Of a DNA stretch of 64,000 bases, positions 57,168 to 64,000 are shown piece by piece. A model generated the notes under the pieces. The model had not been told where the DNA came from and did not search any database. It worked only from the letters and a program-made list of their open reading frames with translations. This DNA comes from Aequorivita sp. (GTDB lineage Bacteria; Bacteroidota; Bacteroidia; Flavobacteriales; Flavobacteriaceae). A program made the position numbers and the translations under genes. Where the stretch lies: positions 124,001 through 188,000 of the forward strand of contig JAGXGE010000004.1 of NCBI GenBank assembly GCA_024637015.1. Reading direction: 5' to 3'. Every line of letters begins with the position of its first letter. The stretch's first letter is position 1.

Positions 57168-57245
57168 TTAACCTTAACCTAACACTATAGTGACGAATTG
57201 GTAATGCCTAATTAACACCGGCTTTACATTGTGGGAGTTCCTTTG
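57168..57245 (+). promoter_or_regulatory. Pho-type promoter with six phased half-sites (TonB receptor)
   Basis: 5-bp half-sites repeat every 11 bp at 57168 (TTAAC), 57179 (CTAAC), 57190 (GTGAC), 57201 (GTAAT), 57212 (TTAAC) and 57223 (TTTAC). The last ends 10 bp before the -7 box TTCCTTTG (57238-57245). An 11-bp direct-repeat array just upstream of the -7 box is what PhoB-type winged-helix activators bind. No TTG occurs at -33. Confidence 0.72.
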
Positions 57246-57268
57246 CACAAATAAATCAAACGACAAAA

Positions 57269-60094
57269 ATGAAAACAATTATTAAAGTTTTATTCTTTTT
57301 TTTAACCTCCATTTCAATAGCCCAAACAGGCTCTATTGTTGGAAAACTTACAGATACCGACTATAATAACGAACCTTTGCCTTTTGCAAATATTTTTCTG
57401 AAAGGAACCTCAAAAGGAGTTACTTCAGATATAGATGGTTTGTATTCTTTGGAAAGCATTGAACCTGGAACCTATACCGTGGTTTATAGTTTTGTAGGGT
57501 ATAAAACGGTTGAAATTCCAGACGTAAAAGTAATTGCAGACAAAGTAACAAATATAGATGTGCCTATGAGCGCCAGTGCGGCTGCTTTAGATGAGGTTGT
57601 AATTAAAACCACAACAAGAAGGGAAAGTGCAGTTGCTTTATTATTAGAACAGAAGAAAGCTGTTGGCATTACACAGTCCATCGGTGCGGAAGACCTTTCA
57701 AGAAAAGGTGTCGGCGATGCCGAAGGTGCCGTAACTAAAGTAACTGGTGTTAAAAAACAGGCAGGTATAAAGAACGTATTTGTTCGCGGTTTGGGAGACC
57801 GTTACAATTCTACCACCTTGAATGAATTACCACTTCCTTCAGAAGATCCGGAATACAAAAATATTTCTTTGGACTTTTTCTCTAGTGATGTTATTGAAAG
57901 TGTAGGCATAAACAAAACTTTTTCTGTACCGCTTTACGGCGACGTTGCGGGAGCCAACATAAATATTGTAAGCAAAGAACTTACTGGACCAGGAAGTTTA
58001 CAGTTTTCCATTTCGCCGGAAGTGAATTCACGAGCTGTTGGAAAAGAATTTTTAATTATGGACAATGCCAAATACATTGGCAATATTCACGATACGCACG
58101 TACCTATTACAGACTTGAGTGTACATGCTTTTGATAACAACTTTAAACCAAACACCCAAAACGCCCAACTAAACTCCAGTTATTCCCTTTCTGGTGGAAA
58201 GCGTTTTGATATCGGGAATAATAGGTTGAGTCTTTTTTTCGTAGGTAATTTTGACAATAAATATGAATACCGCGAAGGAACTTCTGACAGGATAAATGCT
58301 GCTGGAGGATTTAATCAACAATTTCAAAGAACCGAATACAATTACAACGTTTCAAAATTGGCTATGGCCAACATAAAATTCCGTTTTCAGGAAGGAGATT
58401 ATATCGCGGCAAACAGTATGTTCATAAAAAACAACAGCCAAAGTGTTGCTGATTATTACGGATTAAAAGCAGGACTTACCGAAAACAATGAGCCTCAAAA
58501 CCCAATTCGTGCTTTAATTAGAAGACAGCAGGAAAACGAAAATAATCTTTTTGTAAACCAGCTTTTAACTTCGCTTACCATTTCTGAAAAACTTAGTTTG
58601 GAAGCGGGCGCTTCATACAACACCATACGTGCATATGAGCCAGACCGCAGAACCAACACCTATGTTATTGATGTAAATGCAGACATAGCCCGTGCTGCTT
58701 CGGGAAGTGCGCTTAACAATCGTTTTTATTCAAATCTTGAGGAAAATGATTTGGCCGGAAAGCTTTATTTGGATTATGCTTTAAATGGAAAAAATGAAGA
58801 CAGTAAAAATAGTAGAGTCCGTCTGGGTTACAATTATAGAGATACAGACCGAGCTTTCAATTATACCCAGTTAAACTATATTTTTGACAGCCCGGCCGTT
58901 GTAGATATTGACAATCCAGACACTTCACTTTTTAACCAGCAATCTTTAAACGATGGAATATTTAGACTTACCACAAACCGTGGTGATGGTCGTGACGGGA
59001 AAGATCCTTTCATTCCTTTTTCTTATGATGGAACCAGAACCATTCACTCAGGTTTAGGAGAAGTAAGTTATGATTTTTCAAATAGCTTTTCAGCAAACGT
59101 AGGCGTTCGTTACGAAAAAGTGAAACAGGAAGTGCTTTTTGACACCAACCTTGCAACAACCAACGATCCAAACACAGATCCTTCACTTATTGATGAAAAC
59201 TTCGTTCTACCAAGTTTCAATTTGAAGTATAACTTTAACGAAAACAGCATCGTTCGTTTAGCGGGAAGCAAAACTTACACGCTTCCACAATTTAAGGAGG
59301 TAGCACCTTTCCTTTATGAAGACGTAAGCTTCAACAGTTTTGGTAATCCAGATTTGTTGACTGCTGACAATTACAACCTAGATTTGAAATATGAATACTA
59401 CTTCAGCCCAGGTGAAATTGTTGCCGTTACTGGTTTCTATAAAAACATCAAAAATGCCATAAACCGTATTGAGGTGAATTCTGCTGCAGGCGAACTTTCC
59501 TATGTAAACACTGGTGATGCAACTATTGCAGGAGTTGAGCTTGAACTGAGAAAAAACATTCTGAAACTTTCGAATGATTCTGACAGTGAAAAGACTTTGA
59601 CTTTCGGATTGAATGCTTCCTATTTATACTCAAACCAAAAATTGGAAGATGTTCCAACGGATAATCTTACCGTTCGTTTCACCAATAAAGAAGATGAACT
59701 GGAAGGTTCTTCACCATTCATTTTGGGCTCAGATTTAACGCTGAATTTGAAAAAGAAAAACAGCGGCATTACCAGCTCGGTGGTTTTCAACTATAACAGT
59801 AAAAGTATCTACTCTTTGGGAACAGGCGGTGATGATGCAAATCCAGGTTCAGGAAAGAACAACATTATGCTATCAGCCATCCCAACATTGGATTTCATCA
59901 ACAAAATTGCCATCAATGAAAATTTCGGAATCAAACTTAACATTAAAAACATATTAGATCCCGAGTACAAATTGACACAAGATGTAAACAATATTGGAGT
60001 TCCAAATCTCTCATTACCAGACGGACAGGAAGTTCCAGTAGAAACCTACAAAAGAGGCGTAGTTTTTAGTGCAGGCGTTTCCTATTCATTCTAA
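57269..60094 (+). CDS. TonB-dependent receptor of the phosphate-starvation locus
   Basis: 941 residues. A signal peptide (1-18, SISIAQ) precedes a carboxypeptidase-like regulatory domain (about 22-105, GKLTDTDYNNEPLPFANIFL), a TonB-box-like linker, the plug (about 120-240, KNVFVRGLGDRYNSTTLNEL) and a long beta-barrel ending RGVVFSAGVSYSF. There is no STN domain, so it does not signal through an anti-sigma. It is followed by a surface lipoprotein gene with a matching promoter, a receptor-lipoprotein pair like SusCD in logic although the lipoprotein is not SusD. The upstream array of phased half-sites, the OprO/P-type porin and the PstS nearby suggest import of phosphate or an organic phosphorus compound. 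Confidence 0.85.
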   Translation: MKTIIKVLFFFLTSISIAQTGSIVGKLTDTDYNNEPLPFANIFLKGTSKGVTSDIDGLYSLESIEPGTYTVVYSFVGYKTVEIPDVKVIADKVTNIDVPMSASAAALDEVVIKTTTRRESAVALLLEQKKAVGITQSIGAEDLSRKGVGDAEGAVTKVTGVKKQAGIKNVFVRGLGDRYNSTTLNELPLPSEDPEYKNISLDFFSSDVIESVGINKTFSVPLYGDVAGANINIVSKELTGPGSLQFSISPEVNSRAVGKEFLIMDNAKYIGNIHDTHVPITDLSVHAFDNNFKPNTQNAQLNSSYSLSGGKRFDIGNNRLSLFFVGNFDNKYEYREGTSDRINAAGGFNQQFQRTEYNYNVSKLAMANIKFRFQEGDYIAANSMFIKNNSQSVADYYGLKAGLTENNEPQNPIRALIRRQQENENNLFVNQLLTSLTISEKLSLEAGASYNTIRAYEPDRRTNTYVIDVNADIARAASGSALNNRFYSNLEENDLAGKLYLDYALNGKNEDSKNSRVRLGYNYRDTDRAFNYTQLNYIFDSPAVVDIDNPDTSLFNQQSLNDGIFRLTTNRGDGRDGKDPFIPFSYDGTRTIHSGLGEVSYDFSNSFSANVGVRYEKVKQEVLFDTNLATTNDPNTDPSLIDENFVLPSFNLKYNFNENSIVRLAGSKTYTLPQFKEVAPFLYEDVSFNSFGNPDLLTADNYNLDLKYEYYFSPGEIVAVTGFYKNIKNAINRIEVNSAAGELSYVNTGDATIAGVELELRKNILKLSNDSDSEKTLTFGLNASYLYSNQKLEDVPTDNLTVRFTNKEDELEGSSPFILGSDLTLNLKKKNSGITSSVVFNYNSKSIYSLGTGGDDANPGSGKNNIMLSAIPTLDFINKIAINENFGIKLNIKNILDPEYKLTQDVNNIGVPNLSLPDGQEVPVETYKRGVVFSAGVSYSF

Positions 60095-60103
60095 AAAATA
60101 CAA

Positions 60104-60159
60104 TTAACAGAACCATAATATTAACCTAAGAGTAACGAAACAAGCTAGTTGTTTCTTTG
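60104..60159 (+). promoter_or_regulatory. Pho-type promoter with four phased half-sites (lipoprotein)
   Basis: Half-sites every 11 bp at 60104 (TTAAC), 60115 (ATAAT), 60126 (CTAAG) and 60137 (GAAAC), then 10 bp, then the -7 box TTTCTTTG (60152-60159). A second, better-matching but out-of-register pair (TTAAC 60121, GTAAC 60132) overlaps it. Confidence 0.66.
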
Positions 60160-60186: not shown

Positions 60187-61455
60187 ATGAAAAAATTTCT
60201 TTTATCAAGCTTTGTAATCGCAACATTAGCCCTTACTGGCTGTAGTAAAGACGATAGCCCCACACCAGTGGCAGCTACTTGTAATGATGGAGTTCAAAAC
60301 GGTGACGAAACTGGTATCGATTGTGGCGGTTCAGCATGTGAGCCTTGCGCAGTGCAAGCTGAAAAAGACGGTATAATTGCCTCTCAAGACGATCCAGATT
60401 TAGATCCTGCTGACCTTAAAGGTGATGTAACTGCAGATGTATGCTTAACAGCAGACACAGTATGGATTCTTACTGGTCCGTTACACGTTAAAAACGGAGC
60501 GACATTATGTATAGAGCCAGGCACAACCATTAAAGCTACTGCTGGTGGAACAAACGTGTATGTTGCAATAGAGCAAGGAGCAAAAATTAATGCCCCTGGA
60601 ACTGCTGCTGCACCAATAAAATTCACTTCAAGCGCAGCAAATCCAAGATCTGGAGACTGGGGTGGAATTCTTCTAATCGGAAAAGCTCCTATTAGTGGTG
60701 GTGGAACTGCAACTACTGAGGTTGTTGATTTAACTTACGGTGGAACTACTTCAAACGATAACTCTGGAGTTATGAAATATGTTGAAGCTTCATACACTGG
60801 CGCTCGTATCAATGGCGACAAGGAATTTAACGGAATCACTTTTTATGCGGTTGGAAATGAAACCGTTATTGAAAACTTAGCAGTAATTTATGGTGATGAT
60901 GATGCCTATGAATTTTTCGGTGGAACTGTAAATGTAAAGAATTTAATATCAGTAAACATTAAAGATGATATGTTTGACTGGACACAAGGATGGACTGGAA
61001 CTGCTACAAACCTTTATGGTTTAAGAGAAGCTAACTATACATCAATTACTGAAGACCCTCGTGGACTTGAAGGTGATGGAAACCTTGACGGGAATTCTCC
61101 TGGTGACGGCGGACAGTCAAATCCAACAATCAACGGTTTAGTATTGATTAACGCAGGCATCATTGATATGGCTGATATGATTAAAGTAAGAAGAGGTAGC
61201 GGACTTACCCTTACCAATGCATACGTAGCCTTTGGAAATGCTGACGCATTTGCGAGTGACTTCATAGATTTAACAGATTCTAAAGGGGATGCTAAAGGCT
61301 CTTTAATTAATCTTTCAGTAGTTGGAGATTCTTCAACTGGTCTTGATATTACAGATATCAAAACAACTGCCGACGCAACAATTAATGTAACAGACGGAAC
61401 TGTTCCAACAGTGAGCAGAGATTTGTTCAACTGGACTGGTTACGTTTTTGAATAA
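60187..61455 (+). CDS. Beta-helix surface lipoprotein paired with the Pho TonB receptor
   Basis: 422 residues from ATG 60187. A lipobox ends at Cys19 (ALTGC). A short Cys-rich motif (TCNDGVQNGDETGIDCGGSA, then CEPC) follows, as in many Bacteroidota surface lipoproteins. The rest is a repetitive, Asn/Asp/Gly-rich chain (HVKNGATLCIEPGTTIKAT, then GDWGGILLIG) that reads as a right-handed parallel beta-helix, a fold that can bind extended ligands. There is no T9SS signal. Expected place: outer leaflet of the outer membrane, acting as the lid or ligand-capture partner of the receptor encoded just upstream. It has its own promoter of the same type. The ligand is unknown. Confidence 0.82.
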   Translation: MKKFLLSSFVIATLALTGCSKDDSPTPVAATCNDGVQNGDETGIDCGGSACEPCAVQAEKDGIIASQDDPDLDPADLKGDVTADVCLTADTVWILTGPLHVKNGATLCIEPGTTIKATAGGTNVYVAIEQGAKINAPGTAAAPIKFTSSAANPRSGDWGGILLIGKAPISGGGTATTEVVDLTYGGTTSNDNSGVMKYVEASYTGARINGDKEFNGITFYAVGNETVIENLAVIYGDDDAYEFFGGTVNVKNLISVNIKDDMFDWTQGWTGTATNLYGLREANYTSITEDPRGLEGDGNLDGNSPGDGGQSNPTINGLVLINAGIIDMADMIKVRRGSGLTLTNAYVAFGNADAFASDFIDLTDSKGDAKGSLINLSVVGDSSTGLDITDIKTTADATINVTDGTVPTVSRDLFNWTGYVFE

Positions 61456-61528: not shown

Positions 61529-61888
61529 TTAATTTGAAACCACTTGTGTATGGGAAGATTTCCAAGTAACTACTTTGGCTACACGTGCATCCATATAGTT
61601 TACTTCTTTAATACTATTATTTGAAAAGAAATACCAAGTGCCTACTTTTTCACCATTATTATATTCTGCTACTGCAGTTTTATTTCCTTGAAGATCATAG
61701 CTTACCCATTCTCCCGTAAGTTTGTTTTCTTTATTATAAAAACCCGTTTGGGCTATCATTCCATTATCATGATAGATTGTAGCTTCTATAACATCACCAT
61801 CTAAAAAGTAAGTGTTGCTTTTAGTATCCTGAGCCAAGGCCACAGAAGTTATAAAAACGATTGCTAAAAGTGCGAGTATATTTTTCAT
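61529..61888 (-). CDS. Small secreted protein with MORN/YwqK-type repeats
   Basis: 119 residues. A signal peptide (to VALAQ, residue 20) is followed by about four short repeats of the form Y-x-N-G-x-x-x-x-G-x-W (GMIAQTGFYNKENKLTGEW, then NNGEKVGTWYFFSNNSIKE). This is the MORN-variant or YwqK family that is often auto-named toxin-antitoxin antitoxin; with a signal peptide and no toxin gene that name should not be trusted. A minus-strand -7 element TAAATTTG lies at 61918-61925. An 11-bp-phased half-site array at 61931-61968 lies just upstream, so phosphate control is possible. Confidence 0.7.
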   Translation of the reverse strand: MKNILALLAIVFITSVALAQDTKSNTYFLDGDVIEATIYHDNGMIAQTGFYNKENKLTGEWVSYDLQGNKTAVAEYNNGEKVGTWYFFSNNSIKEVNYMDARVAKVVTWKSSHTQVVSN

Positions 61889-62031: not shown

Positions 62032-62087
62032 TTAATGATTTGGTAAAACTAAATTTACACAAAATGAACATCTGATTATTTTCTTTG
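62032..62087 (+). promoter_or_regulatory. Orphan Pho-type promoter (predicted small RNA)
   Basis: Half-sites every 11 bp at 62032 (TTAAT), 62043 (GTAAA), 62054 (TTTAC) and 62065 (TGAAC), then exactly 10 bp, then TTTCTTTG (62080-62087). The geometry is the same as at the four Pho-type gene promoters of this locus. No gene starts between it and the terminator at 62152-62185. Confidence 0.62.
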
Positions 62088-62092
62088 TATCT

Positions 62093-62185
62093 GCCTTATA
62101 AAAGGCAAACTTTAAAATCGTTTAGTTTTTGTCGACTAGATTTTAAAAACTGGGCTGCCCCATATTGGGCAGCCCTTTATTATTT
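62093..62185 (+). ncRNA. Predicted phosphate-responsive small RNA
   Basis: A transcript from the promoter at 62032-62087 would start about 62093 and end at the terminator, about 90 nt. It folds into three consecutive stems: GCCTT/AAGGC with an ATAA loop (62093-62106), TTTAAAATC/GATTTTAAA (62111-62119 with 62139-62147), and GGGCTGCCC/GGGCAGCCC (62152-62160 with 62167-62175) followed by TTTATTATTT. It contains no ATG-initiated frame. The porin gene further on has its own promoter after this terminator, so the RNA is not simply its leader. Function unknown; base-pairing regulation of Pho or envelope mRNAs would be the default guess. Confidence 0.55.
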
Positions 62186-62219: not shown

Positions 62220-62264
62220 ATAACTTTTAGGAAACATTTAGTTAACATTAGTTTTAGTTCTTTG
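62220..62264 (+). promoter_or_regulatory. Pho-type promoter with three phased half-sites (porin)
   Basis: Half-sites every 11 bp at 62220 (ATAAC), 62231 (GAAAC) and 62242 (TTAAC), then exactly 10 bp, then the -7 box GTTCTTTG (62257-62264). The ATG follows 27 bp later. Confidence 0.68.
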
Positions 62265-62291
62265 CGGCGACAAAAACTAAAAACGATTTAA

Positions 62292-63491
62292 ATGAAACTT
62301 ACGTTAACTACAGTATTCTTGCTTATTCTATCCTTTAACGCTATTTCGCAAGAAATAGAAGGGCCAAAATTTGGTAAGGGCATCCTAAACATAGTAGGAA
62401 AAGACAGTACCTGGAGTATGAATATGTCCGCCAGAATGCAATTTCTTTCAACCACTGAGTGGGAATATGAAGGCGATCAATACGGAAAAGCCGAATCCAA
62501 TTTTCTTGTTCGTAGAGCGCGATTGAAATTCAGCGGTTTTGCATACTCTCCAAAACTTAAATATAAACTTGAATTGGGTCTTTCTAACAGAGACATTGCC
62601 GGTGCATCCGAATTTACAAGTGACTCTCCAAATTATATTCTCGATGCGGTCGTAATGTGGAACTTTTACGAAAACTTCGAACTTTGGGCCGGACAGACCA
62701 AATTGCCAGGTAACAGAGAGCGCGTAATTTCTTCGGCAAACCTACAATTCGTGGATCGTTCGTTGCTAAACAGCAGATTTAACATAGACCGCGACATGGG
62801 CCTTCAACTAAGACACCATATAGATTTTTCCGAAAATTTCGTGGTGAGAGAAATGGTTGCAGTTTCACAAGGCGAAGGAAGAAATGTAACCACCGGAAAT
62901 CTTGGCGGCCACCAGTATACAGGACGAGTTGAAATTTTACCCTTAGGAAATTTTAGTGGTAAAGGCGATTATGTAGGCGGGGATTTACAGAGAGAGGAAA
63001 CTCCAAAACTTGCTCTTGGCGCCACTTACGATTTTAACTACAATGCGGTTAAAAACCGAAGCAATCAAGGCTCCTACATGGTTAATGATGAAGGGTTTTA
63101 TGAAACTAATATTTCAACCATCTTTGTAGATGCAATGTTTAAATACAGCGGATTTTCTCTTATGGCTGAGTATAGTAACCGCGATGCAGAAGATGCACTT
63201 GCTAAAAATTCCGACGGTAGCTTAACAGGTGATGTTGTGCAAGTGGGCAATGGATTGAACCTTCAAGCTGGTTATTTGTTTAAAACCAACTGGGAAATTG
63301 CAGGACGTTATACTACAATTGATTTGGATCAAAATATTACTGGTAAAGACGTAGAAAGCCAATACACTTTTGGAATTTCAAAATATATTGTGGGCCATAA
63401 ATTAAAAGTACAAACAGATATTAGCTATTCCACCCTTGGCGGTGAAAATGATAATTTGATGTACCGTCTTCAAATGGATATCCATTTTTAA
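62292..63491 (+). CDS. Phosphate-selective porin (OprO/OprP family)
   Basis: 399 residues with a signal peptide (to AISQ, residue 19). The remainder is a 16-strand type barrel: MNMSARMQFLSTTEWEYEG and NFLVRRARLKFSGFAYSPKL near the start, LWAGQTKLPGNRERVISSA, and a C-terminal strand ending RLQMDIHF. Members of this family form trimeric anion channels; OprP and OprO of Pseudomonas select phosphate and polyphosphate and are induced by phosphate starvation. The Pho-type promoter and the pstS gene 118 nt downstream agree with that role. Several Arg residues in the constriction-like segment are visible, but selectivity is inferred from family and context. Confidence 0.88.
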   Translation: MKLTLTTVFLLILSFNAISQEIEGPKFGKGILNIVGKDSTWSMNMSARMQFLSTTEWEYEGDQYGKAESNFLVRRARLKFSGFAYSPKLKYKLELGLSNRDIAGASEFTSDSPNYILDAVVMWNFYENFELWAGQTKLPGNRERVISSANLQFVDRSLLNSRFNIDRDMGLQLRHHIDFSENFVVREMVAVSQGEGRNVTTGNLGGHQYTGRVEILPLGNFSGKGDYVGGDLQREETPKLALGATYDFNYNAVKNRSNQGSYMVNDEGFYETNISTIFVDAMFKYSGFSLMAEYSNRDAEDALAKNSDGSLTGDVVQVGNGLNLQAGYLFKTNWEIAGRYTTIDLDQNITGKDVESQYTFGISKYIVGHKLKVQTDISYSTLGGENDNLMYRLQMDIHF

Positions 63492-63583: not shown

Positions 63584-63609
63584 TACCGCAAAAACTAAAC
63601 CTTTTAACA

Positions 63610-64000
63610 ATGAAAAAATTAATAACAATTATTGCCTTTTCCCTTATTATTTCCGCCTGCGGAAACAAAAAAGGCGAAAACGAAACTGCCCAAAGCGATG
63701 GTGGAAATTTGGAAGGCACCATTAAAGTAGATGGTTCCAGTACTGTTTTTCCAATAACAGAAGCTGTAGCCGAGGAATTTAGGAAAGAACAACCACGCGT
63801 TAAAGTAACTATTGGTGTTTCCGGAACAGGTGGAGGCTTCCAAAAATTCTCTAGAGGCGAAACCAATATCTCTAATGCCTCCAGGCCAATCAAAGACCTA
63901 GAAAAAGCAGCCTGTGCCGAAAACAATATTAATTACATTCAGCTTGAAGTTGCTTACGATGGCCTTGCTGTAACAGTAAACCCAGAAAACACCTGGGTAG
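63610..64000 (+). CDS. pstS: Phosphate ABC transporter substrate-binding lipoprotein (3' end outside window)
   Basis: The frame opens at ATG 63610 and runs off the window after 130 codons. A lipobox ends at Cys17 (IISAC). The phosphate-binding loops of PstS are visible: [18 protein letters not shown] (about residues 38-55) and [13 protein letters not shown] with [13 protein letters not shown] (about 67-97). It captures phosphate in the periplasm for the PstCAB transporter, whose genes should lie to the right. Its position after the OprO/P porin and a Pho-type promoter supports the call. Confidence 0.92.

Follow-up and report, generated by a model that had tools for sequence, protein, structure and literature searches.

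A putative Pho-promoter small RNA in Aequorivita and the co-evolving complementarity of its core to the adjacent phosphate porin leader

The question raised by this locus is what is made from the short stretch ahead of a phosphate porin gene in Aequorivita sp., and on which message the product would act. The window, meaning the whole stretch of 64,000 nucleotides that was analysed, carries here a TonB-dependent receptor gene at 57269 that flanks the locus, a putative lipoprotein gene at 60187 (no Pfam match, lipobox recognised by eye), a minus-strand ORF at 61529-61888 that is weakly MORN-like (MORN_2 at 22.9 bits, below the 29.6 cut-off), the porin gene and, at 63610, a periplasmic-binding-protein gene, here called pstS, which is open at the window end. 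A preliminary description had proposed that an orphan Pho-type promoter between the lipoprotein and porin genes drives a small RNA (sRNA), the parts of which are placed as follows.

62032..62069, + strand: four Pho-type half-sites of the sRNA promoter at 11-bp spacing, from the window sequence and 62 representatives
62080..62087, + strand: Bacteroidota-type -7 element TTTCTTTG of the sRNA, TTTG in most relatives
~62091..62182, + strand: sRNA gene of ~90 nt, with a putative 5' end and the 3' end set at the T tract
62092..62107, + strand: 5' hairpin of the sRNA, a predicted fold
62111..62147, + strand: antisense hairpin of the sRNA, from the fold and from covariation of its arms between genomes
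62113..62134, + strand: sRNA segment complementary to the porin leader (AAAUCG, UUUAGUUUUUGUCG), from duplex energy and co-evolution
62128..62133, + strand: apical loop UUUGUC of the sRNA, proposed seed, predicted to be unpaired
62152..62182, + strand: intrinsic terminator GGGCUGCCC...GGGCAGCCC with T tract, from the fold and helix covariation

The segment ~62091-62182 has a minimum free energy of -35.7 kcal/mol (z -5.9), which none of 200 shuffles equalled, and its fold consists of two hairpins and a terminator hairpin (62152-62175) that is followed by an imperfect T tract; three hairpins and a terminator had been described earlier, of which the terminator is retained and the hairpin count falls to two. 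Over 72 sequences the 13-pair consensus is paired in 96.7% of cells, its covariation score is 0.448 vs 0.239 when shuffled (0/500), and each of the nine terminator-helix pairs is altered on both sides. In the 5' hairpin, one of the three consensus pairs is changed on both sides in 3 of 25 sequences. Covariation of the arms of the antisense hairpin is hidden by column alignment; among 45 representatives, a 5' arm pairs with its own 3' arm at -8.4 kcal/mol vs -5.4 for mismatched arms (0/5000 permutations), and the apical loop hexamer UUUGUC has a mean unpaired probability of 0.90-0.93. No ATG is present between the -7 box and the terminator in the window sequence, as had been stated before. A TTG at 62085 is followed directly by TAA in several relatives, so that no conserved ORF begins there, and a short ORF as the product of the region was rejected because there is no ATG and frames and lengths vary among relatives. 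At the level of sequence, 62091-62182 is a noncoding RNA gene, an independent transcription unit with its own promoter and terminator.

The promoter follows the spacing given in the preliminary description, as four half-sites (TTAAT 62032, GTAAA 62043, TTTAC 62054, TGAAC 62065) stand at exact 11-bp steps, with 10 bp from the last of them to TTTCTTTG at 62080-62087. The same geometry had been attributed to four genes of the locus; it is found before the porin, pstS and TonB-receptor genes, where the last half-site lies 19 nt before TTTG, but not before the lipoprotein gene, for which a spacing of 24 nt from box to TTTG fits. The 11-bp boxes of the lipoprotein promoter (window 60121-60159) are 5 bp off the register of the neighbours. 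The porin gene and the sequences ahead of it are placed as follows.

62220..62246, + strand: Pho-type half-sites of the porin promoter (ATAAC 62220, GAAAC 62231, TTAAC 62242; TTTG 62261)
62268..62289, + strand: leader CGACAAAAACTAAAaaCGATTT of the target porin mRNA, separated from the ATG by 2 nt
62292..63491, + strand: OprO/P-type porin (PF07396), the target gene, Pfam E 1.2e-15

Of 9,318 TTTG sites, counted on both strands of the window and of a 400-kb sample of its genome, just three have three or more half-sites in register, those of the TonB receptor, the sRNA and pstS, all in this locus, and four occur before the sRNA alone; the half-site pattern was written with these sites known, and the porin itself scores just two boxes by it. 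A less circular count is given by a plain pattern: TTAA lies exactly 52 nt before TTTG in 42 of 62 sRNA promoter representatives, the window sequence included, vs 0.65 expected from mononucleotide shuffles. A fitted matrix places the first sRNA box 52 nt before TTTG in 43/62, and the consensus reads TTAAT-n6-TTAAT-n6-TTACA, with poor boxes in about 7/62. The porin promoters (n=61) read GGAAACATT-n3-TTAACATT, the last box beginning 19 nt ahead of TTTG. The sRNA boxes keep the 11-bp register of the porin but stand a repeat further upstream, and a fourth, weak box is present at -19 (TGAAC in the window). The 11-bp direct repeats in phase with the core promoter that characterise a Pho regulon are found before the sRNA.

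PhoB is put forward as the putative regulator because of this shared register and because of the Pi response of the phoBR cluster of F. johnsoniae, whose TonB receptor and lipoproteins, likened to those of the window by kind and not by homology, are strongly Pi-induced (PMC8115612). On both grounds we infer that the sRNA would be controlled by PhoB and induced in the phosphate response. Another OmpR-family regulator with 11-bp repeats could instead drive both sRNA and porin in answer to a signal other than phosphate, as the sRNA boxes (TTAAT, TTACA) are unlike those of the porin (AAACATT, TTAACATT) and porin-matrix scores on the sRNA promoters are modest (median 4.9 vs 23.9 on porins; 52% of the 62 above the 95th percentile of shuffles). 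The identity of the register and of its phase to the -7 box, the sharing of that register by pstS and the TonB receptor, and the Pi-induced F. johnsoniae genes, again by kind (PMC8115612), make such a regulator quite unlikely.

By blastn, the sRNA is present in 25 of 28 Aequorivita genomes, and its core (62113-62134) is nearly invariant within the genus. The exact 23-nt core pattern was found in 34 stretches when one genome for each of 84,980 species was searched, these belonging to Aequorivita, to other Flavobacteriaceae (Patiriisocius, Cochleicola, Ulvibacter) or to entries placed no further than Flavobacteriaceae/Bacteroidetes; together with matches of the sRNA in other genera, the 25/28 count rejects an RNA confined to one species. 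A model (R1) finds matches at E <=1e-3 in 134 of 397 family genomes, a count that is noisy towards its weaker end; matches at E ~1e-4 were not taken at face value, and the loci used are those with the core. A broader model (R2), run at E up to 1e-5 with strict filters on, returned the same six genomes, all Flavobacteriaceae, among 246 order-level and 385 phylum-level genomes, sets that themselves include members of the family, and gave no match in 13 listed genomes of one large genus (g127, at a guess possibly Flavobacterium). Weaker R2 matches, at E 1e-4 to 1e-2, were discarded: of 14 loci inspected none has the core at fewer than 3 mismatches, and most share just a terminator-like hairpin with the sRNA. 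Two contigs of a single MAG (PACB-20200414-m8; L064 and L074) each carry an sRNA of the same core. The preliminary description had made its RNA depend on conservation of promoter and stems in close relatives, and both are conserved.

As to what the RNA would act on, the core at 62113-62134 is the reverse complement of the porin leader at 62268-62289, with AAAUCG-UUUAGUUUUUGUCG of the sRNA facing CGACAAAAACUAAA-aa-CGAUUU-aa-AUG of the leader. The label 'orphan' is misleading, because the adjacent porin has a leader to which the RNA core is complementary and with which it co-evolves, a relation that the preliminary description had missed. In the 3.2-Mb genome GACAAAAACTA occurs six times, once as the complement of the sRNA itself, once in the porin leader and four times at sites that are not leader-like by eye. 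Among 436 leaders, taken from mechanically called ORFs of at least 100 aa in the window and a 400-kb sample, the porin leader is first for pairing with the sRNA segment (-21.9 kcal/mol, z -6.0); when the whole sRNA is the query, the pairing is dominated by the arms of the hairpins, with the TonB receptor at rank five and the porin outside the six best leaders. The leader of an rplM-like gene, second of the 436, was taken as a chance match. A -7 box with CGACAAAA is matched 34 times in the genome, and among the 30 matches with loci those of the porin and the TonB receptor alone directly precede a gene start in a leader; the remaining ATGs lie inside longer reading frames by eye, apart from one before a 123-aa ORF with weak pairing. 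Transcription from the opposite strand, which would mark a cis-antisense RNA, is not the arrangement here, the sRNA lying on the same strand as the porin and upstream of it.

The co-evolution of the two sequences was followed in sRNA-leader pairs from 145 genomes, reduced to 45 representatives that differ from one another in at least 5 of the 16 positions of the variable arm. An sRNA pairs with its own leader at -20.4 vs -15.7 kcal/mol with other leaders (z -14.1; 0/5000 permutations), and for the part beyond the constant core alone the values are -4.6 vs -2.1 (z -9.8; 0/5000), in permutations that ignore the tree, kinship being reduced only by the choice of representatives. Control segments on the same leaders give z 0.6 (just upstream) and z -0.1 (3' flank); the variable segment read backwards is mildly significant (z -2.2, 69/5000), so that composition contributes a little. 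Compensatory switches are seen in ungapped counts over 143 genomes: the position at offset 2 beyond the constant G is T-A in 115, A-T in 12, T-T in 7, T-G in 5, C-G in 2 and A-A in 2, and that at offset 4 is A-T in 70, T-A in 40, A-A in 13 and C-G in 4, with others fewer. Ungapped pairing is 94-100% at offsets -5 to 2, 86% at 3 and 82% at 4, then 60, 21 and 30% at 5, 6 and 7, where many pairs need bulges. This co-evolution indicates that sRNA and porin leader pair, through a proposed seed that is exposed in the predicted fold, complementary to the mRNA and kept so by co-variation, as looked for in a trans-acting base-pairing sRNA. A single co-evolving target would not require a core as constant as GUUUUUGUC, which implies that other constraints or targets exist.

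The same complementarity could in principle be a DNA-level inverted repeat, that is, a binding or recombination site with no pairing of RNAs. This is highly improbable given the G-U intermediates at offsets 0-2 of the duplex and the tolerance of bulges, the covariation of hairpin and terminator, the promoter and terminator of the sRNA, and a placement fixed between -7 box and start codon; the one locus that favours it is in G148 (L156), where a 34-nt exact inverted copy of the porin promoter and leader occupies the sRNA position ~150 nt before the porin ATG. The assembly of G148 is fragmented and holds a second sRNA-like match on another contig, and the inverted copy may have arisen by inverted-repeat gene conversion or be an artefact.

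The pairing reading is joined by a co-occurrence of its two partners. From 201 family genomes with a window-type porin, 135 of those listed were taken, leaving out members of the genus and genomes already included via sRNA matches, and 134 were scored (G129 was dropped at a contig end). The leader motif and the sRNA are both present at 107 of the 134 porin loci and both absent from 24, with the motif only at 2 and the sRNA only at 1 (Fisher p 4e-23, relatedness uncorrected). A motif with no sRNA is seen in G421 and G317, and an sRNA with a degraded leader in G303 and A. vitellina (L025). The total of 107 includes eight genomes accepted on a closer look, four with the sRNA ~3 kb upstream (G384, G104, G127, G327) and four with diverged cores (G335, G227, G148, G034); the table with these eight hand-credited genomes taken out reads 99/10/1/24 for both, motif only, sRNA only and neither. 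The 24 motif-less genomes gave no convincing sRNA by R2 search and a direct pairing test. Co-diverged pairs in G330, G106 and G314, the strongest, lie >330 nt upstream in what is by eye a dGTPase-type coding stretch, and were ascribed to chance.

In all 145 pairs used, the core lies 130-233 nt before the porin start codon, adjacent and co-directional, which is the arrangement expected if read-through from upstream let the U-rich arm fold onto the porin start region as a cis-acting attenuator, the 'sRNA' being a by-product. That explanation is improbable, as a covarying terminator stands between sRNA and porin, a conserved promoter belonging to the porin directly precedes the leader, and in four genomes (G327, G384, G104, G127) the sRNA is 2.8-3.2 kb from the porin, with opposite-strand ORFs between them in L039 (G327) and L036 (G384), one of which we take to be like a carbonic anhydrase and one like a SulP transporter. 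In these four genomes the gene is separable from its target, as looked for in an sRNA, and they argue for action in trans.

The porin itself is less constant than its leader. In 10 of 25 sRNA-bearing Aequorivita (L003, L004, L005, L007, L012, L014, L019, L021, L022, L025) a distant porin that is not of the window type stands behind the leader; all ten belong to PF07396, and the one compared with the window porin has 23% identity (E 3e-5). These loci keep promoter, sRNA and leader, the leader being degraded in one (L025). In G073, sRNA and leader motif precede a 33-codon ORF, and ~220 nt further on is a 335-aa ORF with borderline beta-barrel matches, followed by a pst cluster. The porin ORF is swapped while sRNA and leader stay, so that the conserved unit is the sRNA-leader pair and not one protein. 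The idea that the porin was lost together with the sRNA in the three sRNA-less Aequorivita is weakened, because the search covered the window-type porin only and 10/25 sRNA-bearing genomes have another porin at that site; one of the three, G024, has a contig end before the porin site, and in G022 the site from the lipoprotein gene to a Pit-like gene has no core and no ORF of at least 150 aa. A separate locus in G187 (L044, ~1326-1424) has an sRNA with core AGTTTTTGTCGGCT upstream of what is by eye a Pit-like transporter ORF, the leader of which is without the target motif.

Two further messages of the locus are candidate targets.

63589..63600, + strand: candidate second target CAAAAACTAAAC within the leader of pstS, 4th of 436 leaders
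57261..57269, + strand: candidate target CGACAAAAA at the TonB-receptor start codon, from Aequorivita copies, 9th of 436 leaders

This type of pstS is present in 3 of 28 genomes of the genus, and CAAAAACTAAA in all three. In Aequorivita TonB-receptor leaders, CGACAAAAATG is found in 15 of 18 (window 57242-57271), and seven of the receptor proteins are just 41-49% identical to that of the window. One of the 15 is from G022, a genome without the sRNA, so that something else may hold the motif. The TonB receptor as a general target was rejected, since among 17 leaders from other genera partial matches occur only in G188, G087 and G285. A tentative extension, less likely than not, is a lineage-specific lock-and-key across the family, in which a local Pho-induced sRNA would time and cap phosphate uptake through the leader, whichever porin follows, and in Aequorivita would also touch the TonB-receptor message and, where present, that of pstS. 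If this is true, the phosphate island has a shared post-transcriptional brake.

The main reading, to which we give a probability of about 0.7, is that the ~90-nt Pho-promoter sRNA pairs with the porin leader, likely blocks initiation and caps the porin in an incoherent feed-forward loop. The sRNA would be transcribed from a Pho-type promoter in which the boxes are displaced upstream by one 11-bp repeat relative to the target promoter. The apical loop UUUGUC would be the first part to meet the porin mRNA, at GACAAA close to its 5' end; the duplex would then extend along the 5' arm of the antisense hairpin in the direction of the start codon and, in the window, cover the A-rich leader with ~20 bp. 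The UUUG of the loop presumably fits the U-turn pattern YUNR. Bacteroidota mRNAs are without a Shine-Dalgarno sequence, and initiation depends on leader bases and structure. In F. johnsoniae, mRNA structure and upstream bases, among them an A at -3, tune initiation, which proceeds without a Shine-Dalgarno (PMC6847099), so masking of the leader should repress; the likely result would be blocked 30S loading, perhaps with mRNA decay. Cells short of phosphate would make both RNAs, and the sRNA boxes, which are shifted and divergent, suggest that the sRNA would rise later or at higher activator levels, capping porin synthesis. Counting against this, the oprP transcript is not induced in Pi-starved F. 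johnsoniae (PMC8115612).

The sRNA could alternatively activate the porin in a coherent loop, with pairing at the 5' end that shields the mRNA from decay or keeps its leader open to ribosomes, both RNAs then being required when phosphate is scarce. The two genes share a promoter register, and the paired stretch begins only a few nt beyond the -7 box, so that a duplex could protect the mRNA at about its predicted 5' end. In many of the 45 pairs, however, the duplex approaches or enters the start codon, and the porin leader is short and A-rich, with little to open. The duplex would also mask bases such as the A at -3 that tune translation in F. johnsoniae (PMC6847099), and activation is unlikely. 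Sequence comparison suggests, in keeping with repression as the main reading, that the sRNA is a built-in brake or tuner on phosphate uptake. To our knowledge, few sRNA targets are known in Bacteroidota, and here a target is supported by intermolecular covariation over >100 genomes ahead of any experiment. Such an RNA would mean a further, RNA-based layer in the way that a family of major importance in soil, sea and fresh water acquires phosphate, would give a test bed for sRNA action on mRNAs without Shine-Dalgarno sequences and would offer a natural series of re-matched sRNA-leader pairs.

In comparing the RNA to known systems, an Rfam 15 scan gave no model at its gathering threshold on the sRNA, and only a tRNA in the window, so that identity with a known Rfam family was rejected. 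Two Bacteroides sRNAs of the same phylum, BTnc049 and GibS (RF04179, RF04182), score 24.7 bits vs a gathering threshold of 81.9 and, on the other strand, 24.5 vs 115, other families scoring about as well; BTnc049 is the best weak match for the whole element, and an AGUUuuuGuG stretch of its consensus is similar but placed elsewhere. Rfp18 of Flavobacterium psychrophilum is also a Flavobacteriaceae sRNA with predicted mRNA targets and is set apart by description, being needed for precise protease expression (PMC9723704). No description of an RNA like the present one was found in searches of open-access full text; a base-pairing sRNA on a porin mRNA is a known kind, and what was not found described is the nearby gene, the shared register and the dedicated co-evolving leader that outlives its ORF, in a host without Shine-Dalgarno sequences. 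CopA and Sok are plasmid and toxin-antitoxin antisense RNAs with U-turn (YUNR) loops, and the likeness to them lies in a small dedicated antisense RNA, an exposed loop and the joint change of RNA and target; unlike them, the sRNA here does not come from the opposite strand of its target, and it is chromosomal with a metabolic target. MicF, MicA, MicC and RybB are the porin-repressing sRNAs of enterobacteria, in which, as here, a trans-acting RNA pairs around the ribosome-loading site of a porin mRNA. We know of no link of the Aequorivita-type sRNA to Hfq, and by description it is set apart from these four by a gene near its main target, by the promoter register that it has in common with that target and by a leader without a Shine-Dalgarno sequence.
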